64,000 bases of DNA from Paludisphaera rhizosphaerae (lineage in GTDB: Bacteria; Planctomycetota; Planctomycetia; Isosphaerales; Isosphaeraceae): the NCBI RefSeq assembly GCF_011065895.1, contig NZ_JAALCR010000010.1, forward strand, positions 124,001 through 188,000. Direction: 5' to 3'. This document shows, in pieces, positions 45,470-57,118 of the stretch. The first letter of the stretch is position 1, and the number at the start of each line of letters is the position of its first letter. The notes below the pieces were generated by a model, which saw only the letters and a program-made list of their open reading frames with translations, was not told the origin of the DNA and made no database searches. The translations under genes and the position numbers were made by a program.

Positions 45470-45610
45470 CGGCTGGGCTCCGTCGCGATTGACAGATCGG
45501 TCGGATTGTGGATAACACGGACGCCCTCGTTGCGCCCGGCGTCTTGAGCCCAGGGAAGGGTGAACACGTCGCGCGGTCCGCCGCCGTCGGGGGCGATCCG
45601 TGGAGGATGG

Positions 45611-47125
45611 ATGGCGACCTTCCGCATCGACGCCCTCGGCCGAACGCCGGCCCGCCTTCGCAACTGGTTCGACCGCGCCCGCAAGGCGACTGGTGGTCGA
45701 TCCGCGCCAGCGCGGCTGGGATTGATCGCGGTCACGGCCGGCTGCCTGGCCGTCGCCGGATGTCTGGCCGTCTGGTCCGTCGGCTCGGCTGATCGAGTTT
45801 ACCTCGCCGCCGGCCGCGTCTTCCGGCCCGACGACCTCCACAAGATCGAGCGGGCCCTGCAATCTCAGGGAGTCGAGTACCGGATTGACGACCGCCGCAT
45901 GAGCGTCGCCGGCCGACAGGCCGAATCCGCCGCCGCGCTCGTCGCCAAGCTCGACCTGGGACCGCGCTCGCCCCGGGAGCTGCGCGACGTCGCCCCGGCC
46001 AGTTCCTTCTTTGAGAGCCCCAGTGAGAAGGAAGACCGGCTTCTACGCGGACGAGCCCAGCTTTGCGAGGCGTTCATCGACGATCTGCCCGGCGTTGAGA
46101 GCTCGCTGGTTAGGATCAATCGCAGTCAACAGCGCGGGGGGATTCGTCCGACTGTGAAGTCGACGGCCTTCGTCAGCATCCAAACCGAGGGGGGGCGTGA
46201 CGTGCCACTCCCCACCGTCGACTCGATCGTTTCCATCCTCATCGGCAACGAGCCCGGCCTTCAGCGGGAATCGATCACGGTCATGGACGGCGCGGGGCGT
46301 CGCTACCTGGACGCCGGCAATCCCGAACTGACCGCCCTGACCAACAACCGGGCCCACGAGGACGAGATCAGCCGGCGGATCCGCGACCAACTGGACTGGA
46401 TCAAGGACGTCCGCGTCACGGTCACGATCCACGACCCTCCTCCGGCCACGACGCCCGCGCCGACCGTCCAGACATCGTCACCGAAGTACGAACCGGCGAC
46501 GACTCACGCGGGGATGTCCGTCGGCCTCAACCGGGCGATGGAGATCGAGACCGACGAAGAGCCTGCACCCGCGCCGGAGGTCGTCGTTCCTGCTCTCCCC
46601 ACGCCGGCGAAGCGTCACGGCGAGGTCTGGGTGCTCGTCCCGCGGAGCTACTACTACAACGCCACCCGCAAGCCCGAGGGAGGCGCTGCGTCCCACGAGG
46701 ACCACGTCGCCCTGATGAACCGGACGGAGGGGCTGGTCCTCAACGCGGTCCGGCTCGCGGCGTCCGACGACGACGGGATCGAGTGGGCTCCGCCGAAGGT
46801 CGACGTCTTGCCCGACGAGATGCCCGTCGATACCGCTCCATCCGTCGCCGTCTCGTCATCTCGGCGAGCGGCCCGCGAGTGGGCGTTGGCAGGTGGTGCG
46901 GGGGCGGCCGCGGCGGCCATTGTGGCGATCGGCACCTGGATCCTCGGCGGCTTGCAGCCCTCGCGGCGGAGTTCCTCCTCGCGGAGCGGCGATCTGCGCT
47001 ACCACCGTGGAACGCCCGGAACGCCGGCTCCGACGGAGCGGGTCCTTGAATTCGTCCGACGCAATCCGGAAACCGCATTCAGCGTCCTCAACCGATGGAC
47101 GACCCAGGGAGGGGGGAGGTCATGA
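45611..47125 (+). CDS. fliF: Flagellar M-ring protein FliF
   Basis: FliF forms the MS ring on which the rotor and export gate are built. The 504-residue product has two membrane helices (about 40-61 and 437-455) around a periplasmic part with ring-building motifs (GVESSLVRINRSQQRGG, KSTAFVSIQTEG, LTALTNNRAHEDEISRRIRDQL), and a C-terminal FliG-binding tail (ERVLEFVRRNPETAFSVLNRW). It is about 50 residues shorter than usual. ATG 45611 has GGAGG at 45602-45606. The stop overlaps fliG by four bases (ATGA). Confidence 0.88.
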   Translation: MATFRIDALGRTPARLRNWFDRARKATGGRSAPARLGLIAVTAGCLAVAGCLAVWSVGSADRVYLAAGRVFRPDDLHKIERALQSQGVEYRIDDRRMSVAGRQAESAAALVAKLDLGPRSPRELRDVAPASSFFESPSEKEDRLLRGRAQLCEAFIDDLPGVESSLVRINRSQQRGGIRPTVKSTAFVSIQTEGGRDVPLPTVDSIVSILIGNEPGLQRESITVMDGAGRRYLDAGNPELTALTNNRAHEDEISRRIRDQLDWIKDVRVTVTIHDPPPATTPAPTVQTSSPKYEPATTHAGMSVGLNRAMEIETDEEPAPAPEVVVPALPTPAKRHGEVWVLVPRSYYYNATRKPEGGAASHEDHVALMNRTEGLVLNAVRLAASDDDGIEWAPPKVDVLPDEMPVDTAPSVAVSSSRRAAREWALAGGAGAAAAAIVAIGTWILGGLQPSRRSSSSRSGDLRYHRGTPGTPAPTERVLEFVRRNPETAFSVLNRWTTQGGGRS

Positions 47126-47757
47126 ATCCGACGGCCCCGTCCGCTCGACCGACGCAACGCGCTCGCGACATGGGCGACCCTCCGCGCGTGACCTCGCCCA
47201 CGGCGAACGCGCCCGAGGCCGCGCCGCCGATCATCGATCCGCCGTCGATCACCGCCATCCCGCCCCTGCGCAAGGCGGCGATCGTACTGGTGAGCCTGGA
47301 GCAGTCGCTTTCCTCGCAGATGCTCGCCCACCTGGATCACGCCGCGGTCGAGGCCGTCACCTGGGAGATCGCCCGGATGGACCGCGTCGACCCGGCCGAA
47401 CAGGCCGTGGTTCTGGAGGAGTTCCTGGCGCTCGGCCTGCGACGGCTCTGCTTCGTTTTCGAGGACGTCCTTCGCATGGACGACCGCCAGCTCCGAGCCG
47501 CGTTTCGCCCCGAGGACGCCGAGGCCTGGGCGTTGGCCCTGGCCGGCTCGGCTCCGCCGCTGCGGGCCAAGGTGCTTGGCGCGCTGAACACGTCGGCCGC
47601 CCTGGTGCTCCAGCGTCATCTGGAGAACCTTGGGCCGTTCCGGCTCTCGGACACGGAAGTCGCGCAGGTGGAGGTCGCGGAGTTGCTCCGGATCCTCTCC
47701 GACCAGGGCGCGATCGACCTGCCCGATCCCAGCGGCCGGGAAGAAGTGCTGGTCTGA
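47122..47757 (+). CDS. fliG: Two-domain FliG-like protein lacking the middle domain
   Basis: FliG is the rotor protein whose C-terminal domain meets the stator. This 211-residue form has an unstructured Pro/Ala lead (1-45), a FliG-N domain (RKAAIVLVSLEQSLSSQMLAHL, 50-71, then WEIARMD) and a FliG-C domain (112-211). The usual length is about 330; the middle domain that binds FliM is absent. Aligned without gaps to the E. coli C-terminal domain, K264 becomes A141, R281 S158, D288 R165 and D289 H166; only R297 is kept (R174). ATG 47122 overlaps fliF. The family is clear; torque function is doubtful. Confidence 0.87.
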   Translation: MNPTAPSARPTQRARDMGDPPRVTSPTANAPEAAPPIIDPPSITAIPPLRKAAIVLVSLEQSLSSQMLAHLDHAAVEAVTWEIARMDRVDPAEQAVVLEEFLALGLRRLCFVFEDVLRMDDRQLRAAFRPEDAEAWALALAGSAPPLRAKVLGALNTSAALVLQRHLENLGPFRLSDTEVAQVEVAELLRILSDQGAIDLPDPSGREEVLV

Positions 47758-47804: not shown

Positions 47805-48293
47805 ATGGCCCGAACCAAACTCCTGCTGCTGTCTCTCGCCCTGCTGCTGGCGACGGCCCCGGCCGTACCAGCCCAGGAAGCCCCCGCGCCCGAAACGGTA
47901 AAGTCGTCGCGGGAGACGCTCGCCTCCCGGAAGTCGCGTTCAACGCTCGCGCCGACCTCGCAGGCCTGGTGGCTGGGGACGGCCGTCATGATCCTGGCGC
48001 TCGGCGGCGCTGGTGCGATCTGCATGGCCGCGAAGCATCGGACCGAGAGTGGGCCGACGGTTCGCCTTCAGGTCGTCGGCCGGGTCGCACTCCCCCCGAA
48101 ACACGCGGTCTTCGCCGTGAAAGCCGGCGGTCGGACGCTTCTGATCGGCGTCGGCCCCCAGGGGGCGCCCTCGCTCGTCGGCGAGCTTGACGCCGACGAT
48201 GAACCCGTCGTCGAGCCAGCCAAGGTCTCCACGCCTCATCGCCCGGTCCACACCCAGCCACGCTTTGACGTGAGGATCGGAGACGAATCATGA
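47805..48293 (+). CDS. fliO: FliO-like flagellar biosynthesis protein
   Basis: FliO is a small membrane protein that helps FliP assemble in the export gate. The 162-residue product has a signal-like hydrophobic start (KLLLLSLALLLATAPAVPAQ), one membrane helix (about 54-76, WWLGTAVMILALGGAGAICMA) and a beta-rich cytoplasmic domain (LQVVGRVALPPKHAVFAVKAGGRTLLIGVG) as in FliO. GAGGGG at 47792-47797 supports ATG 47805. FliO is poorly conserved, so position before fliP carries much of the evidence. It overlaps fliP by four bases. Confidence 0.85.
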   Translation: MARTKLLLLSLALLLATAPAVPAQEAPAPETVKSSRETLASRKSRSTLAPTSQAWWLGTAVMILALGGAGAICMAAKHRTESGPTVRLQVVGRVALPPKHAVFAVKAGGRTLLIGVGPQGAPSLVGELDADDEPVVEPAKVSTPHRPVHTQPRFDVRIGDES

Positions 48294-49138
48294 ACGGCCG
48301 AAACGCCGCGCGATGGTTCGCCGTGATACTGCTCCTGACGCTCGCATCGCCATGCCTCGCCCAGACGCAGGCGCAGCCCGGTCCTCAGCGCAAAGCGGCG
48401 GTCACCCAGGTCAACACGCCTGTCGAGGTCCCCGAGCCCTCGCCGACGCCCGAGAAGGCTGCGACGCCGACCATGGCGGCCGACGCGTCGCGGACGGTTC
48501 AGCAGGTCTTGATGTTCGGCGCGGCCTCGCTCATCCCGGTGGCGCTGCTGACGATCACGCCGTTCGTGCGGATCAACATCGTGCTGATCCTGCTGCGACA
48601 GGCGCTGGGGAGTCCGCAGGTGCCGGGGAACCAGGTGCTCACGGCGCTCTCGCTCTTGCTTGCCGCCCTGGTAATGCGGCCCGTCGCCGAGAAGGTCTAC
48701 GTCGAGGCGATCGAGCCCTACCAGGCCGGTCGCGTAGGCGTCGCCGAAGCCTGGCGGACCGGGTCGGAACCGATCAAGACGTTCATGGTCGATCAGATCG
48801 TCCTGACCAACCATCAGGAATACCTGACGACGCTCTACGACCGGGCGCATCCCGGCGCGTCCTTCGGTTCGAAGCCCGACGCGGCGGAGGACTTCCCGAT
48901 CGGAGTCGTCGCGCCGGCGTACATCCTCAGCGAGCTGACGACGGCCCTGAAGATCGGCTTCATGCTCTACCTGCCGTTCCTGGTGATCGACCTGGTGGTC
49001 TCAGCCGTGCTGGCGGCGATGGGGCTGTTCATGCTGCCGCCGACGCTGGTTTCGACGCCCGCCAAGTTGATCGTCTTCGTCCTGGCCGACGGCTGGCTGC
49101 TGGTGGCCGACATGCTGCTCGCCAGCCTTTCGGCCTAG
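48290..49138 (+). CDS. fliP: Flagellar export gate protein FliP
   Basis: FliP (SctR) forms the core pore of the flagellar export gate as a pentamer with FliQ and FliR. The 282-residue product has a signal peptide, then FliP hallmarks LLTITPFVRINIVLILLRQALGSPQ-like sequence (read at 84-107), PAYILSELTTALKIGFMLYLPFLVIDLVVSAVL and the closing MLPPTLVSTPAKLIVFVLADGW, each given here in pieces. The ATG overlaps fliO. It is well conserved and shows no sign of decay, unlike FliG and FlhB here. Confidence 0.94.
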   Translation: MNGRNAARWFAVILLLTLASPCLAQTQAQPGPQRKAAVTQVNTPVEVPEPSPTPEKAATPTMAADASRTVQQVLMFGAASLIPVALLTITPFVRINIVLILLRQALGSPQVPGNQVLTALSLLLAALVMRPVAEKVYVEAIEPYQAGRVGVAEAWRTGSEPIKTFMVDQIVLTNHQEYLTTLYDRAHPGASFGSKPDAAEDFPIGVVAPAYILSELTTALKIGFMLYLPFLVIDLVVSAVLAAMGLFMLPPTLVSTPAKLIVFVLADGWLLVADMLLASLSA

Positions 49139-49155
49139 AAGGAAGGAGCCCGCGC

Positions 49156-49422
49156 GTGGACCTCAACGTGACGATCGACTGGACCCGCGAGGCTCTCCGG
49201 CTGGCCCTGATGCTGGGCGGGCCGATCCTGGCCGCGGCGCTGGTGGTGGGGCTGGCGGTGAACGTTCTTCAAACCATGACCCAGCTTAACGAGCCGGTCG
49301 TCGGCCTGGTGCCGCGGTTGGTGGCCGTGGTCGTCGCCACTCTCGTCCTGCTGCCCTGGCTGGCGGCCCGTTGGATCGAGTTCACGGTCGATCTCATCGG
49401 CTCCATCCCCGACATGCTCTGA
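49156..49422 (+). CDS. fliQ: Flagellar export gate protein FliQ
   Basis: FliQ (SctS) is the two-helix subunit that wraps the FliP/FliR core. The 88-residue product has the normal FliQ length and segments LMLGGPILAAALVVGLAVNV and QTMTQLNEPVVGLVPRLVAV, which match FliQ (LQAxTQxNE). It begins at GTG 49156, seven bases after AAGGAG (49143-49148), and 17 bases after the fliP stop. It shares its strand with a long open frame entering from 48313, but only the fliQ part is protein-like, so it should be treated as a separate small gene. Confidence 0.92.
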   Translation: MDLNVTIDWTREALRLALMLGGPILAAALVVGLAVNVLQTMTQLNEPVVGLVPRLVAVVVATLVLLPWLAARWIEFTVDLIGSIPDML

Positions 49423-49445
49423 TCCTGTTGCGAAGGCGGGCCTTG

Positions 49446-50213
49446 ATGGGCGACATCCCGATCGAGCTGGGCTGGTCGTGGGCGACGGCGACGGCCTGCG
49501 TCCTGGCGGGCGCACGGACGGCCGGCGTCTGCTTCACGGCTCCGACCCTGGCCGCCCCCGGGCTCGACTGGCGGTATCGTATCGTGACGGCGCTGGCGCT
49601 CGGCGTCTGGACGGCTCCGCTCGCCGCGACTGCGATTGGGACGCCCTCCTCACCCTACGGCTTCGGCGGTCTGATCGTCGGCGAGGCGCTCGTGGGGGCG
49701 TTGCTGGGGCTGTCGGCGTCGCTGGTGGTGGCCGGCGCTCGGCAGGCCGGCGAACTGGTTGCGGCCCAGGCCGGCCTGACGACAGCCTCGCTCTTCGACC
49801 CTGAGACGGGAGAGGAAACCTCGGCCCTCGGCCACCTTTACGGCCTGATCGCGATCGCCGTCTTCCTAGCGATGAACGGCCCGCTCGTGGTGCTCGACAG
49901 TCTGCTCCGGAGCTTTGAGGCGATCCCCGCCGGCTCGCTCGTCTTCGAGCGGAGCGTGATCCAGCAGTTGTTCGGACGCGCGGCCGAGGCGCTTCAACTG
50001 GCCGTTCGCGCCGCGGCGCCGCCGGCGATCGCCCTGGCGACGGCCGGCGTGGCGCTCGGATGGCTCGGCCGACTGGCCCCAAGCGTCCCTCTGATGGCCC
50101 TGTCGCTCCCCATTCGCGCGACCCTCGGCGTTCTTCTTATTATGGCGAGCTTGGCCGCCTTGACTGCCTGTCTGGAAGGCGGCTGGTCGGCCTGGGCGAC
50201 CGGCGGATTCTGA
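49446..50213 (+). CDS. fliR: Flagellar export gate protein FliR
   Basis: FliR (SctT) completes the export-gate core and abuts FlhB. The 255-residue product is polytopic with six predicted helices. Family segments include FTAPTLAAPGLDWRYRIVTALAL, GEALVGALLGLSASLVVAGARQAGEL and IALATAGVALGWLGRLAPSVPLM, quoted here in part. ATG 49446 is 23 bases after fliQ and a gap of 13 bases separates it from flhB. It looks intact and of normal length. Confidence 0.93.
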   Translation: MGDIPIELGWSWATATACVLAGARTAGVCFTAPTLAAPGLDWRYRIVTALALGVWTAPLAATAIGTPSSPYGFGGLIVGEALVGALLGLSASLVVAGARQAGELVAAQAGLTTASLFDPETGEETSALGHLYGLIAIAVFLAMNGPLVVLDSLLRSFEAIPAGSLVFERSVIQQLFGRAAEALQLAVRAAAPPAIALATAGVALGWLGRLAPSVPLMALSLPIRATLGVLLIMASLAALTACLEGGWSAWATGGF

Positions 50214-50226
50214 GCGGGGAGGAGTG

Positions 50227-51255
50227 ATGTCTGAGGACCGCACCCAAGCCGCGTCGCCGCGTCGCCGCCAAATGGCTCGCGAGCAGGGGCAAGCGGCGCA
50301 CAGCCCAGAGCTGACGGCGGCCGTCGGTTGGCTCGTCGCTGTGGCGATGCTGGCTGCTTTTCAAACGAGCCTTGTCGGCTCGCTCGTCGAGGTTGTCCAG
50401 TCGCCGTTCGCGAGCCCCGCCGCTCGTCTCAATAACGCGGTCGATCTGGCGAGGCTGGTTCGAACGGCGATGTGGGGCGTTGCGATGCCGGTGGGGGCGG
50501 TGGTCTCGGGTTTCGCCGTGGGCGCGTTCGCGGCGCATCAGTTTCAGACCCTCGGCCTGTTCGCGCCGGGGCTGATCGCCCCGGACGTTTCGCGGCTTTG
50601 GAGGCCCGGGCGGGGCGGGGGATTGGGAGCGAAGGTCGAGCGTTGCGTCTGGTCTGCGGCCAAGGCGGTCATCCTGGCCGGCGTGATGATCTGGGGCGTG
50701 CGTTCGCGTTGGGATGTGCTTGAAAGCCTGAGTTTCCTGGACTTTCCTGACGCGGTTCGCGGCGGTCTCGGCGCCTTGCTGGCTCCGGCCTGGACGCTGG
50801 CGGCGGCGATGCTCGCGGTCGGGATCGTGGACTATGGGCTTCGCTCCTCGCGGTTCGAGGCCATGCTGCGGACGACGCCCGAGGAACATCGAGAGGACCA
50901 GCGGACCATCGAGGGGGATCCCCGGACCCGAGCCTCGCGACGGAGGCTGGCGAAGTCCTGGCGCGAGGGGGCTTCCGAACTCCTCGAAGGGGCGACTCTC
51001 GTGCTGACGGGCGACGGGGGACTAATCGTGGTCCTCGCCGGCGGACCGCCGCCGCGCAAGGTATTCGTCCGGACCGCGGCGCGAGGGAAGTCGGCCGCGC
51101 CGCTGAGAGCCGCGATCGCGCGGGCGAATCTGCCGACGCGCGAGGCTCCGTCGCTCGCTCGGCTGATCGTTTCGAGGCCGGCCGCATCGTCGCGCGGGGC
51201 GATCGCCGATCCGCTGCTGATCGCCCAGATTCGCGCCCTCTGGCAGACCGCCTGA
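50227..51255 (+). CDS. flhB: FlhB-like export switch protein without the autocleavage site
   Basis: FlhB (SctU) sets substrate class by cleaving itself between Asn and Pro of NPTH in its cytoplasmic domain. The 342-residue product has the four-helix membrane half and the linker EGDPRTRASRRRLAK that is typical of FlhB. At the site where NPTHY should be (about 262-265), the sequence is LVLTGDGGLIVVL, so Asn-Pro-Thr-His is GDGG. Autocleavage should be impossible. The start is ATG 50227 behind GGGGAGGAG; GTG 50224 is an alternative. The gene is 14 bases after fliR. Confidence 0.87.
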   Translation: MSEDRTQAASPRRRQMAREQGQAAHSPELTAAVGWLVAVAMLAAFQTSLVGSLVEVVQSPFASPAARLNNAVDLARLVRTAMWGVAMPVGAVVSGFAVGAFAAHQFQTLGLFAPGLIAPDVSRLWRPGRGGGLGAKVERCVWSAAKAVILAGVMIWGVRSRWDVLESLSFLDFPDAVRGGLGALLAPAWTLAAAMLAVGIVDYGLRSSRFEAMLRTTPEEHREDQRTIEGDPRTRASRRRLAKSWREGASELLEGATLVLTGDGGLIVVLAGGPPPRKVFVRTAARGKSAAPLRAAIARANLPTREAPSLARLIVSRPAASSRGAIADPLLIAQIRALWQTA

Positions 51256-51450: not shown

Positions 51451-53694
51451 ATGCCCCCCTCGACGTCCGGTAGCAACGCCTTCTGGCGGAATGCTTCGAG
51501 CCTGGTGCTGCCGCTGACGATCGTCGGCGCGGTGCTGGTCTTCGTCGTACCCATCTCGGCCGAGGTGCTCGACCTTCTCCTTTCAGCGAACCTCACGCTT
51601 GCGGTGCTCGTCCTGCTGACCACGCTGGCGATCCGGACTCCCCAGGAATTCAGCGCGTTCCCGACGATCCTGCTGACGACCACGCTGACGCGGCTCGTCC
51701 TGAACGTCGCCACCACCCGGCGAATCCTCACCCACGGCGGAGTGATGGGCCTGGATGCGGCCGGCACGGTGGTCCGGGCGTTCGGCCAGTTCGTCGCCGG
51801 CGACCAGGTGCTGGTGGGCGTGATCCTCTTCTCGATCCTCGTCGTCATCCAGTTCGTCGTGATCACGAAGGGCGCCACGCGCATCAGCGAGGTCGCCGCG
51901 CGGTTCATGCTCGACGGCCTGCCTGGGCGGCAGATGGCCATCGACGCCGACCTGCACGCCGGGATCATCGACCAGCATCAGGCCCACGCCCGGCGTGACG
52001 AGGTCTATCGCCAGGCGGACTTCTTCGGGGCGATGGACGGCGCCGGCAAGTTCGTCCGGGGCGACGCCGTCGCGGGCGTGGTGATCCTGCTGGTGAACAT
52101 CGCCGGCGGCCTGTTCATCGGCGTCGTCCAGCACGGGATGGCACCGACGGAAGCGATCGACGTCTTCACCCGACTGACGATCGGCGACGGTCTGGTCAGC
52201 CAGGTTCCGGCGTTCCTGATCTCGCTGGCGGCGGGCCTGATCGTCACCCGATCGTCCTCGGCCAGCGACCTCGGCCGCGACGTCGTCGGCCAGCTCACCC
52301 GAAACCCCAGCGTCCTGGGCGTCTCCTCGGCGTTCCTCGCCCTGCTGGCCCTCACCCCGCTGCCGAAGCTCCCGCTGCTGACGCTCGCTGGCGTCCTGGG
52401 CTGGCGGGCCTACCGACTGAGCGGGCAACCGGTCGAGGAGACCGACGAAGAACGCGAGGCTGAGCCTCAGACCCGGCCTAACACACGGACCGACGCAGCC
52501 CGAGCCGAAGCCGAGCCCCACGTCCGTCCGGCCGCTGCGAGATCGCCTGAACCGGCCCGTCCCGCGAGCGACCCGGCCTCGGACGACATGCAGAACCTGT
52601 TGCACGTGGACCTGTTGGAGTTGGAGATCGGCTACCGGCTGATCAGCCTGGCCGACTCCACTCGCGGCGGCAACCTGCTGGAGCGACTGCGGACCGTTCG
52701 GCAAGACGTGGCCCGGGAGCTTGGCCTGATCGTCCCGCAGGTTCGGATTCACGACGAGATCGGCCTCTCGGCCCACGAGTATCGGGTGAAGATTCGCGGC
52801 ACGGTCGTCGGCGGAGGTTCGGCTTACGCGGGCCGGCTGCTGGCCGTCCCGCCGGCGGGGCTGGCTGAGCGTCCCGAGGGACGCGAGGCCGTCGAGCCTG
52901 CCACCGGTCGCGCCGCGGTCTGGATCCACGCCGAAGGCCGCGAGGTCGCCGAACTGGCCGGGTGCAAGATCCTGGACGCCGCCGCCTACGTCGCCTCCCA
53001 CTTCGGCGAGATCGTCCGCAACCACGCGGATGAGTTGCTGACCCGCGAACAGGTCGACCGTCTGCTGGATCGCGTTCGAAGCACGTCTCCGACGCTCGCC
53101 AACGAGGTCGTCCCCGGCCTGATGCGGCCCGGCGAGTTGCAGCGGCTGTTGCAGAACCTCCTGCGAGAGCAGGTGAGCGTTCGCGACCTGGAAACGATCC
53201 TGGAGACGATGGCCGTTCACGCGGGGAAGACCAAGGACGTGGAGTCGCTCACGGAACTGGCCCGCCAGAGCCTCGCGCGTCAGATCACCGAGAGCCACCG
53301 CTCGGAAGACGGCCGGCTGCGGGTCGTGACGCTGGCCCAGGATCTCAACGCCAGGCTAGCGGCGGTCGCCGCGCAGTCGGAGGCCCATCCCTCGGAAGCG
53401 CTGGGGGACGAGACGGTCCGCAACATCCTTCGCGCCGTGGCTCAAGGAGTCGCGGCCCTGGTCGACGCCGGCCTGCCGCCGATCGTGCTGACGACGGCCT
53501 CCGCTCGAGCCGTGCTCAAGGACCTGACCCGCGCCGATTTGCCCCGGCTCGTCGTCCTCAGCCAGCGCGAGATTCCCCGCGATACGCCCGTCGAAGTTCT
53601 CGGGACGATCGTCGAGGATCCGATCGAAGAGGATGAAGCAGACGCGACCGGCCAGGATCCGATCTCGTTCGCCACTACCGAGGCGTTCGCATGA
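51451..53694 (+). CDS. flhA: Flagellar export gate protein FlhA
   Basis: FlhA (SctV) forms the nonameric export ring and couples the proton gradient to export. The 747-residue product has the membrane half of about eight helices with the FHIPEP signature (ISEVAARFMLDGLPGRQMAIDADL, about 145-168, with Asp in AIDAD), a linker rich in Glu/Pro/Arg (about 325-375), and the cytoplasmic ring domain (LHVDLLELEIGYRLISLAD and VPRTANEVVP-type region NEVVPGLMRPGELQRLLQ). The length matches the family. Its ATG follows GGAGAGGA. The ATGA stop overlaps flhF by four bases. Confidence 0.94.
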   Translation: MPPSTSGSNAFWRNASSLVLPLTIVGAVLVFVVPISAEVLDLLLSANLTLAVLVLLTTLAIRTPQEFSAFPTILLTTTLTRLVLNVATTRRILTHGGVMGLDAAGTVVRAFGQFVAGDQVLVGVILFSILVVIQFVVITKGATRISEVAARFMLDGLPGRQMAIDADLHAGIIDQHQAHARRDEVYRQADFFGAMDGAGKFVRGDAVAGVVILLVNIAGGLFIGVVQHGMAPTEAIDVFTRLTIGDGLVSQVPAFLISLAAGLIVTRSSSASDLGRDVVGQLTRNPSVLGVSSAFLALLALTPLPKLPLLTLAGVLGWRAYRLSGQPVEETDEEREAEPQTRPNTRTDAARAEAEPHVRPAAARSPEPARPASDPASDDMQNLLHVDLLELEIGYRLISLADSTRGGNLLERLRTVRQDVARELGLIVPQVRIHDEIGLSAHEYRVKIRGTVVGGGSAYAGRLLAVPPAGLAERPEGREAVEPATGRAAVWIHAEGREVAELAGCKILDAAAYVASHFGEIVRNHADELLTREQVDRLLDRVRSTSPTLANEVVPGLMRPGELQRLLQNLLREQVSVRDLETILETMAVHAGKTKDVESLTELARQSLARQITESHRSEDGRLRVVTLAQDLNARLAAVAAQSEAHPSEALGDETVRNILRAVAQGVAALVDAGLPPIVLTTASARAVLKDLTRADLPRLVVLSQREIPRDTPVEVLGTIVEDPIEEDEADATGQDPISFATTEAFA

Positions 53695-54827
53695 GCGCCG
53701 CGGGGCCCGCAGGACGGGCCGTGGTCGCAGGCGCCGCGAAGGTGCGGACCTATCGAGGTCGGACGATGCGCGAGGCCCTGACGCGGGTGCGCCGCGACCT
53801 CGGGGGCGATGCCGTGATTCTCGCCGCGCGAGAGGTCCGCCGCCGTCGGCTGTTCGGGCTGGGCCCTGACCAGTCGGTGGAGGTCGACGCCTCGCCGCCG
53901 CGATCGGAGTGGCTCGCGACGCCGGCCGACTCGCGACCCCCTCGCGGACTTGGCGGCGATCTCGGAAAGCTCCACATGATGGTCGGCGCGGTGAGCCGCC
54001 GGGGGGCGGTCGAGCAATGGACGCCCGAACTCCCCTCTGGCCTGGCGACCGCCTACGCTCGTCTCCTCGATCTCGACGCTCCCGAGCCCCAGGCGCGAGC
54101 CCTCGTTCGCGAGGCGGCCCGCGGCGGCGATGCTGAGGAATCCACGATCCCCTCGACAGGCGTCGTCGCCGTCAGGCAGGCCCTGGAAGACGCCCTCTCG
54201 ATCGCCCCGCCGGTCCGCCCGGTCAGCGGCACGCGGCGGGTCGTGGCGCTCGTCGGGCCGACGGGTGTGGGGAAGACGACGACGATCGCCAAGCTGGCTG
54301 CGACTCTGAGGCTTCAGCAAGGGGCACGCGTCGGCCTGCTCACCGTCGACGCTTACCGCATCGCCGCCGTGGAACAGCTCAAAACCTACGCCGAGATCCT
54401 CGACGTGCCGATCGCCGCGGCCGACGACCCTGAGTCGGCCCGTGGGGCTCTCGACGGTCTCGACGCTGCGGACGTCGTTCTGGTCGACACGGCCGGACGA
54501 GGCCCTCGCGACCGTGAGCGCATCGGCGAACTGGGCGATCTTCTGGCTCGATTGCGGCCTGACGAGGTCCATCTGGTCCTGTCCGCGACCACGTCCGCGC
54601 GGGGCCTTGGCGCGTCGGCCGAACTGTTCGCCCCCGCGCATCCTGACCGCTTGATCTTGACCAAGCTCGACGAAGCCGAGACTCTTGGGCCCTTGCTGGC
54701 CGTCCTCGGCCGAGCCGACCTCCCCGTCTCCCATCTGACGACGGGGCAGGCCGTGCCCGACGACGTCGAGGCCGCCTCGCGGGGCCGCCTCGCTCGGTTG
54801 ATCCTCGGCGAGGAGGCGGTCGCATGA
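53691..54827 (+). CDS. flhF: Flagellar biosynthesis GTPase FlhF
   Basis: FlhF is an SRP-type GTPase that sets the site and number of flagella. The 378-residue product has the family N-terminus (RTMREALTRVRRDLGGDAVILAAREV), a variable linker, and an NG-type GTPase with the P-loop GPTGVGKTTTIAKL, DAYRIAAVEQLKTYA, VDTAGRGPRD and TKLDEAE. It starts inside the flhA stop and its own stop overlaps the next small gene. The sequence looks intact, though no FlhG homologue follows in the usual place. Confidence 0.92.
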   Translation: MSAAGPAGRAVVAGAAKVRTYRGRTMREALTRVRRDLGGDAVILAAREVRRRRLFGLGPDQSVEVDASPPRSEWLATPADSRPPRGLGGDLGKLHMMVGAVSRRGAVEQWTPELPSGLATAYARLLDLDAPEPQARALVREAARGGDAEESTIPSTGVVAVRQALEDALSIAPPVRPVSGTRRVVALVGPTGVGKTTTIAKLAATLRLQQGARVGLLTVDAYRIAAVEQLKTYAEILDVPIAAADDPESARGALDGLDAADVVLVDTAGRGPRDRERIGELGDLLARLRPDEVHLVLSATTSARGLGASAELFAPAHPDRLILTKLDEAETLGPLLAVLGRADLPVSHLTTGQAVPDDVEAASRGRLARLILGEEAVA

Positions 54828-55066: not shown

Positions 55067-55377
55067 CGCCCCCGGGACCGCGTCCAGCCAGGGACGGCGG
55101 ACGACGGTTGAGAATGGCGGGCGGGTTGTTCGGGTTCTTCGGACGATGAGGCTCAAGACGAATGGGCGGGTCGTCCGATGAATACTGAGGATCGAGTTCC
55201 CTGAATGGTGAGGGGCGGGGGGCGGAATCGCCGACTCGGCCGACAGGTCCTCTAACGGGGGCCGACTCGGCGGGAGGAGATTCGCCCCGATCGAAGGAGG
55301 GCGGGCGGGCCGTCGCCCGCTCCCTGAGGCCGCACAGGGATGTGCGTCCCCTCGCAGCAGCCGACACGGAGGTCAGG
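55067..55377. other. Intergenic region before the sigma28-type gene
   Basis: The 311-base gap has no gene that I can support. It contains two copies of CCGACTCGGC about 30 bases apart (near 55228 and 55260) flanked by GGGGCGGAATC and GATTCGCCCC, which are roughly inverted. These may be regulatory or simply GC-rich coincidence. The promoter of the sigma factor should lie here, and GGAGG at 55368-55372 is its ribosome site. Confidence 0.35.
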
Positions 55378-56154
55378 ATGTCAACCAAGGTGGATGTGGA
55401 TGTGACCGAACTCTGGCGGGAGTTCAAGGAGCACCCCACCACGGAGCTGCGGAACCAGTTGGTCGAGCGTTACTTGGCTCTGGTCAAGTACAACGCCGAA
55501 CGCATCTGGCAGCGCCTCCCCGAGGGGGTCGATCTTGACGACCTGATCTCGGCAGGGGTCTTCGGCCTGATGGATGCGATCGACGCCTTCGACTTGACTC
55601 GCGGCGTCAAGTTCGAGACCTACTGCGTACCCCGCATCCGCGGCGCCATGCTCGACGAGCTGCGCACGATGGACTGGGTCCCCCGGCTGGTGCGGTCCAA
55701 GGCCACCAAGATGGAGGAGGCCCGCAAGGAGCTGGAGGCCCGCCACGGCCGGCCCCCCACCGACGTCGAGCTGGCCGAGCGACTCGGCCTGCCGATGGAA
55801 GAATACGAGAAGATGGCCAACGACGCCAACGCCGTCGGCCTCATCAGCCTCAATAAGAAGTGGTATGAGACCGACAGCTACAAGGACGTCCGCGAGATCG
55901 ACATTCTCGAGGACAAGAAGGGCGAGGACCCCACGCGTCGCCTCCAGCGCAAGGACCTGATGCGCATGGTGACGAAGGGGCTCAACCGCAACGAGCGTCT
56001 GATCATCATTCTCTATTATTATGAAGAATTGACCATGAAGGAGATCGGCGCGACGCTCGACCTGAGCGAATCGCGGGTCTCCCAGATGCACTCTTCGATC
56101 ATCCAGCGGCTTCAGTCTCAGCTCTCGCTCCGCCGCCCCGAATTCGGCACCTGA
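55378..56154 (+). CDS. FliA/WhiG-family RNA polymerase sigma factor
   Basis: Sigma-28-type factors drive late flagellar or developmental genes. The 258-residue product has region 2 (VDLDDLISAGVFGLMDAIDAFD and VKFETYCVPRIRGAMLDELR), region 3 (EARHGRPPTDVELAERLGL), and a region 4 helix-turn-helix (LTMKEIGATLDLSESRVSQMHSSIIQRL). The full family layout is present and no region 1 precedes it. GGAGG lies at 55368-55372, five bases before ATG 55378. It sits at the end of the flagellar-type cluster, as fliA does in many species; no anti-sigma FlgM-like gene was recognised. Confidence 0.93.
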   Translation: MSTKVDVDVTELWREFKEHPTTELRNQLVERYLALVKYNAERIWQRLPEGVDLDDLISAGVFGLMDAIDAFDLTRGVKFETYCVPRIRGAMLDELRTMDWVPRLVRSKATKMEEARKELEARHGRPPTDVELAERLGLPMEEYEKMANDANAVGLISLNKKWYETDSYKDVREIDILEDKKGEDPTRRLQRKDLMRMVTKGLNRNERLIIILYYYEELTMKEIGATLDLSESRVSQMHSSIIQRLQSQLSLRRPEFGT

Positions 56155-56407: not shown

Positions 56408-57118
56408 ATGAAGACGCGACACGTTGCGCCGGCCCTCGTCATCTGTCTGGCCGCCCTCGCCGGGGAGTCGCCCGTTCGGGCCCAGGGATTCGGCTGGGGC
56501 GGGTTCGCCATGCCCTGGGTTCCCACCCCCACGAATTTCGTCAACGACTGGGCCCTCCAGAACGCAGCCCGGGCCGGCCGGCCCCCGTCGAACAACGTCT
56601 ACGCCAACAACCCCAACTCGTACATCAACCGCTTGCGCGACCCCGGCTTCACGCCGACCCAGGACGCGCGCGGCTTTTCCTACGGCAGCCGTCGCGCCGC
56701 GGAAATCGCCGCGGCCCAGGCCGCGCGGTCCCCGGGCGAGGTCGCCGCACATGGCTCCTCCGCAACGACGGCTCCCCCGCCTCCGCCCCCCGCGAAGCCG
56801 GCTCAGCCCGTCGCCAGCTTCTTCGACGCTTCGGGCCGCCTCGTCTGGCCGGCCGAGGCGCCGACCAACGGCGACCTGAAGGCTAAACGAGACGTCTCCG
56901 ACCAGGCTGCGGCCGCGGTCCGCCGCGAGGTCGACGCCCAGGGCTGGGCCCCCATCGCTCTGGCCGCAGAGGCTCGCCAGAAGCTTCTGGACTACGGCCG
57001 TCCGGCCCTTCAGGAAGTTCGAGCCTCATCCACCCCGATGATCGCCCAGACCTTCCACGAGTTTCTGATGAGCCTTTACAACGCCATCGGCTCGGCGACG
57101 GTTCCTCCGCCCCATTGA
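56408..57118 (+). CDS. Exported hypothetical protein
   Basis: The 236-residue protein has a signal peptide (about 1-25, ending PVRAQG) and no membrane helix. The mature N-terminal part is rich in Asn, Pro and Tyr (NNVYANNPNSYINRLRDPGF), then a poly-Pro stretch, then a helical C-terminal half (EARQKLLDYGRPALQEVR). I recognise no family. It lies 254 bases after the sigma factor, on the same strand. Nothing ties it to export or flagellar function directly. Confidence 0.7.
   Translation: MKTRHVAPALVICLAALAGESPVRAQGFGWGGFAMPWVPTPTNFVNDWALQNAARAGRPPSNNVYANNPNSYINRLRDPGFTPTQDARGFSYGSRRAAEIAAAQAARSPGEVAAHGSSATTAPPPPPPAKPAQPVASFFDASGRLVWPAEAPTNGDLKAKRDVSDQAAAAVRREVDAQGWAPIALAAEARQKLLDYGRPALQEVRASSTPMIAQTFHEFLMSLYNAIGSATVPPPH

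Follow-up and report, generated by a model that had tools for sequence, protein, structure and literature searches.

A conserved flagellar-type export gate whose FlhB lacks a recognizable Asn-Pro autocleavage site in the apparently non-flagellated planctomycete order Isosphaerales

Cleavage of the flagellar export-gate protein FlhB serves the transition of export from rod/hook to filament substrates. To our knowledge, autocleavage of FlhB occurs in nearly all flagella and injectisomes, and the reason for it is still debated. In Salmonella, the FlhB variant N269A is not cleaved and export is locked in the rod/hook mode (PMC3708937), and once the cleaved C-terminal domain is removed, export is fixed in the late mode and early secretion is blocked (PMC13344023). 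Among bacteria that likewise lack flagella, the Chlamydiae keep base proteins encoded by the residual flagellar genes FliI, FlhA, and FliF (PMC2830194). Described Isosphaeraceae are non-motile, except for the gliding Isosphaera pallida (PMC7716859), and a comparison published in 2017 reported four non-motile Isosphaeraceae with few flagellar genes but makes no mention of FlhB, its cleavage site, or a conserved gate as a unit (PMC5352709). No earlier description of order-wide loss of the FlhB site together with a retained gate was found in the open-access literature.

The locus of Paludisphaera rhizosphaerae compares with each of these systems in a different way. With the Salmonella/Shewanella-type FlhB it shares the membrane domain, the EGDP linker, the likely fold of the C-terminal domain, and the fliPQR and flhA neighbors, but it has no Asn-Pro site, scores far under the TIGR00328 cut-off, and belongs to a genome in which no flagellum was recognized. 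The non-cleaving FlhB, YscU, and EscU mutants (Asn-to-Ala/Asp or Pro-to-Ala) have the same turn without Asn-Pro and are the best structural matches, whereas here the change is natural and order-wide, affects all four residues, and leaves no rod/hook substrates to lock on. The Salmonella FlhB without its cleaved C-domain resembles the natural C-domain deletions of several relatives in the order, although it is a laboratory construct acting in the late mode of a complete flagellar system, whereas FliI and flagellin are absent here. Finally, the Chlamydiae keep FliI and have a true injectisome, whereas the present system lacks FliI and retains the entire FliOPQR-FlhBA gate. The features below were identified in the window, that is, the whole 64-kb stretch of DNA that was analyzed, positions 124001-188000 of its contig.

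45560..47125, + strand: FliF-like MS-ring protein, 521 aa (PF01514, 57 bits; conserved in the order and in synteny)
47095..47757, + strand: short FliG, 220 aa (PF14842 and PF01706; PDB alignments to the FliG N and C domains)
47919..48293, + strand: FliO-like stretch, the C-terminal part of an open reading frame whose exact start is not fixed (homology in loci)
48290..49138, + strand: FliP (PF00813, 207 bits; nearer to flagellar FliP than to SctR)
49141..49422, + strand: FliQ (PF01313, 75 bits)
49371..50213, + strand: FliR, given from the upstream-most start; the true start may be downstream (PF01311, 150 bits)
50227..51255, + strand: flhB, FlhB/SctU-family export-gate protein, 342 aa (Pfam PF01312, Bac_export_2)
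50911..50922, + strand: EGDP linker motif of FlhB, residues 229-232 (computed position)
51010..51021, + strand: GDGG replacing the NPTH autocleavage motif, residues 262-265 (alignment, profile, and predicted turn)
51451..53694, + strand: FlhA, complete, with the signature FMLDGLPGRQMAIDAD (PF00771, 773 bits)
53691..54827, + strand: FlhF GTPase (TIGR03499, 192 bits, above the cut-off)
55342..56154, + strand: FliA/WhiG-type sigma-28 factor (TIGR02479, 270 bits, above the cut-off)

The flhB gene starts at the ATG at position 50227, with an in-frame GTG at 50224, and encodes a membrane part of approximately residues 1-221 followed by a C-terminal domain of residues 222-342. The protein matches the Pfam family Bac_export_2 (FlhB/YscU) with 127.1 bits against a cut-off of 24.4, covering profile positions 1-311 of 335, and also matches solved FlhB chains. 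Against the flagellar equivalog TIGR00328 it reaches 82.8 bits, far under the cut-off of 349, and is thus not assigned to that equivalog. A whole-genome search identified a single copy in the 8.05-Mb genome, which rules out a second, intact FlhB elsewhere. At the position of GDGG, no NPTH is hidden in the other two reading frames, one of which contains stops.

The original prediction that the EGDP linker is present and that GDGG occupies the clearly recognizable position of NPTH is borne out by three lines of evidence on the cleavage position. When canonical planctomycete FlhBs are aligned with the protein by MAFFT, GDGG falls in the columns of NPTH or NPTE. The Gly-Asp of the EGDP linker is conserved across all rows of an FlhB alignment. 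A profile of 19 C-terminal domain sequences from the order matches the solved C-domains of FlhB, YscU, and EscU (best E-value 1.5e-9) and pairs V-T-G-a-s-G with V-T-N-P-T-H. An AlphaFold model of the C-domain, built from a two-sequence alignment and of modest confidence (mean pLDDT 66), places GDGG at the turn (positions 41-44 of the model) between strand 1 (35-40) and strand 2 (45-50). The top PDB matches of this model are all C-domains of FlhB, YscU, and EscU, mostly of non-cleaving mutants, with Z of about 6-7 and rmsd of 3-5 Å. The full-length model, also from a two-row alignment, has a pLDDT of 48 and was relied on for secondary structure alone. The glycine-rich turn is conserved in its own right within the order, as T-G-x-x-G-L-T-V-V-L-x-G-G-P-P-P, and therefore the C-domain appears to have been remodeled rather than scrambled. 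From the models and the profile, we infer that the C-domain keeps the FlhB fold.

The replacement extends across the order. The sample comprises 38 FlhB loci (the present one and 37 others) from 45 genomes; the cleavage site can be read in 28 of these proteins, the C-domain is lost in eight, and two run off the end of a contig. Asn-Pro occurs at the site in none of the 28, which carry sequences of the G-x-x-G type instead (GDGG, GDAG, GPSG, GNDG, DAGG, GMTG, and similar). By comparison, a sample of 44 canonical FlhBs from other parts of the phylum contains 43 with NPTH (33), NPTE (9), or NPSH (1), and the site of the 44th was not read by the pattern. The nine NPTE proteins include L036, L069, L072, L073, L075, and L076, and since most tested owners of this type possess flagellin, the histidine seems to be dispensable there. 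The sequences compared thus indicate that the loss of the motif is order-wide and old, and the cleavage at Asn-Pro, together with the classical switch that depends on it, can hardly operate, as had been predicted from the single gene. In a tree of the membrane part of FlhB, which has weak deep branches and several long ones, most of the order clusters together and at least some of the outside cases without NPTH fall separately; within the order, the C-domain is absent at four separate places. In the congener G031 (L030), the reading frame of the C-domain is broken just past the GDAG turn, which could be real or an assembly error. Some flagellated members of the class have two FlhB genes (G109, L088; G143, L079/L087), and the second FlhB of G109 is without the C-terminal domain.

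The proteins that an FlhB switch would serve were searched for by family models in whole genomes; such models would miss a very divergent filament or ATPase. Flagellin was found in none of the 45 genomes of the order, and FliI over the curated cut-off was likewise found in none of the 45, with controls from the class exceeding that cut-off. Rod/hook proteins (Flg_bb_rod) were not found in the present genome and match in 3 of the 45 genomes (G006, G018, and G043). The FlgB of G018 is nearest to alphaproteobacteria among plasmid records, which points to contamination during binning, and the match in G043 looks similar by eye; the three matches are probably contamination. No intact flagellum was found elsewhere in the genome by these searches. 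A similar association is seen outside the order, where five other members of the class (G196, G200, G204, G262, and G317) have a sole FlhB that is without NPTH or without the C-domain; none of the five has flagellin, and FliI is lacking in three. In turn, flagellin is present in 14 of 15 flagellar-type comparison genomes with an FlhB match or close kin, the exception being G266. On the basis of the membrane-part tree, the FlhB site has likely been lost repeatedly outside the order. The further proposal of the original prediction, that the gate handles a single substrate class, finds no support as stated: flagellin, rod/hook proteins, and FliI are undetected, and both classes of the switch are missing. 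A single substrate class for the gate is possible.

What the order keeps is the inner-membrane base of a flagellum, with an MS ring, C-ring proteins, and the FliPQR-FlhBA gate all present. The end of the FliF-like protein looks, by eye, like the FliG-binding tail of FliF, and the FliG of the order has its N- and C-terminal domains joined, with most of the middle missing. The FliO-like homologous stretch lies between FliG and FliP in 23 loci. FlhA scores 754 bits against TIGR01398, slightly under the cut-off of 772, compared to 507 against hrcV. An origin from a non-flagellar type III secretion system (injectisome) was rejected, as flagellar models give FlhA, FliP, FliQ, and FliR higher scores than Sct models do. 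A FliM/FliN-like protein with a C-terminal SpoA domain is encoded at a separate locus in 34 of the 45 genomes (439 aa in the present genome). This locus (L151:9827-11146; L151:10995-11783, - strand) adjoins response regulators and a conserved 262-aa protein that had no Pfam match and resembled the FliG middle domain by eye.

The surroundings of the gate hold further conserved genes. The sigma-28 factor is 92-98% identical among the order relatives compared by tblastn, far above the neighboring genes, and probably now serves a different essential regulon in these flagellum-less bacteria; the FliA promoter core GCCGATAA has one match in the 64-kb window, which is at chance level and distant from the cluster. 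Flanking the cluster are small proteins of two families that seem to carry Sec signals (56408-57118; L113:16489-17064; L125:4146-4931), one downstream of the sigma factor and the other, with a YEWVLKKK..WGHK motif, upstream of FliF; neither showed a convincing Pfam match where tested. A FlhG/MinD-like ATPase lies between FlhF and the sigma factor in some genera (L113:4002-5018) and not between them in the window. The cluster is often accompanied by a PMT-type glycosyltransferase and a small Sec-signal protein; the FlhG-like ATPase occurs with it in some genera.

The gate is conserved across the order as a unit. FlhA was found in 42 and FlhB in 38 of the 45 genomes, and both occur in all 26 near-complete genomes, which span at least 19 genera. 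The gene order fliF-fliG-fliO-fliP-fliQ-fliR-flhB(-flhA-flhF-fliA) is kept across many genera. Among 14 flhB pairs, Nei-Gojobori dN/dS values with a finite dS ranged from 0.11 to 0.42 for the membrane part and from 0.09 to 0.61 for the C-terminal part, and none reached 1; these values are rough, as several pairs have a high dS and saturation affects one C-part. FlhB is under purifying selection in both parts. Based on tblastn identities, conservation within the set is lowest for FlhB and FliF, and FlhB evolves faster than FlhA.

All near-complete genomes contain the gate, dN/dS is low, and synteny is conserved. These findings favor a continuing role, and we therefore consider that FlhB probably persists as a switchless export gate or scaffold in an order without flagella, rather than as a dying relic. 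An ancestor of the order would have lost the rod, hook, filament, and FliI ATPase of its flagellum and kept the inner-membrane base, comprising the FliF ring, a short FliG, FliM/FliN-like proteins, the FliOPQR-FlhB-FlhA gate, FlhF, and sigma-28. With the hook-to-filament transition gone, selection for FlhB autocleavage would have ended, and Asn-Pro-Thr-His could have become a plain glycine-rich turn (Gly-x-x-Gly) closing the same hairpin of strands 1 and 2. The C-domain would then have stayed one uncleaved piece, and several lineages may later have dropped it altogether, while the switchless gate would be maintained by purifying selection. The switch was most likely lost because the rod, hook, and filament substrates were gone; with both substrate classes missing, its loss is expected. 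The remaining machine would most likely be an inner-membrane export gate that is driven by protons and independent of an ATPase, or a membrane scaffold positioned by FlhF, in either case with a non-flagellar purpose. The loss of cleavage, the retained activity, the energy source, and the function of the gate are thus what we infer for this machine. Points against this explanation are the faster evolution of FlhB relative to FlhA, the frame break in G031, and the low-to-modest confidence of the AlphaFold models; the repeated loss of the C-domain could equally mark decay.

The main competing explanation, which we regard as unlikely, is that the base is a functionless relic, slowly decaying after the loss of motility, with FlhB further along this path than FlhA. 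Such decay would fit the undetected flagellin, hook, rod, and FliI, the shortened FliG, the low conservation of FlhB and FliF relative to the rest of the set, and the state of the FlhB C-domain, which at least four branches have lost and which is frame-broken in G031. However, an idle operon is not expected to survive with its gate in 26 of 26 near-complete genomes, an FlhA that still scores about 773 bits, dN/dS well under 1, a sigma factor that is 92-98% identical across the order, and its gene order kept.

It is rather improbable that the retained set serves as a CORE-type conduit, in which FliOPQR-FlhA-FlhB would form a platform for membrane tubes and molecule exchange, as proposed for nanotubes of Bacillus. 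The whole published set (FliP/O/Q/R and FlhA/B; PMC8455137) is retained together here without substrates, and such tubes would not depend on a rod, a filament, or switching by FlhB. On the other hand, the proposals leave out FliF, FliG, FliM/N, and FlhF, all of which are kept in the order, the nanotube literature is itself disputed (PMC8455137), and no report of an examination of this order for nanotubes was found in the literature. Very improbable is a third explanation, namely that FlhB is still switched or processed by another route, being cut elsewhere or losing its whole C-domain, and exports unrecognized substrates of a divergent appendage. The late mode of Salmonella is set by physical removal of the cleaved C-domain, beyond a change in conformation (PMC13344023), and the natural loss of this domain in eight FlhBs of the order mimics that state; yet, apart from the probable contamination, the genomes of the order yielded no relative of a rod, hook, flagellin, or FliI protein.

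There is next to no chance that GDGG reflects a sequencing error, pseudogene, or contamination, to which the sole pointer is that the assembly is a draft of 110 contigs, since the frame is open with normal codon-position GC, the FlhB of an independent metagenome-assembled genome (47% identical) has GSGG at the cleavage position, and every congener shows the same replacement. An intact NPTH in relatives had been named beforehand as the sign of such an error or of a recent loss; no relative in the order has one, and both are ruled out by 28 of 28 readable proteins.

Returning to the preferred explanation of a retained, switchless gate, we tentatively suggest a wider form of it, in which the whole order may use a derived flagellar base, permanently without the switch and the ATPase, as a new kind of inner-membrane export or polar-organizing machine with its own substrates. 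This derivative would consist of FliF-FliG-FliM/N and FliOPQR-FlhB-FlhA, with FlhF determining its placement and a link to sigma-28. The order represents a natural experiment in the function of the gate without switch, ATPase, rod, or filament, with FlhA and the rest kept, and bears on the possible uses of a primitive or reduced flagellar base as well as on the CORE/nanotube proposal.
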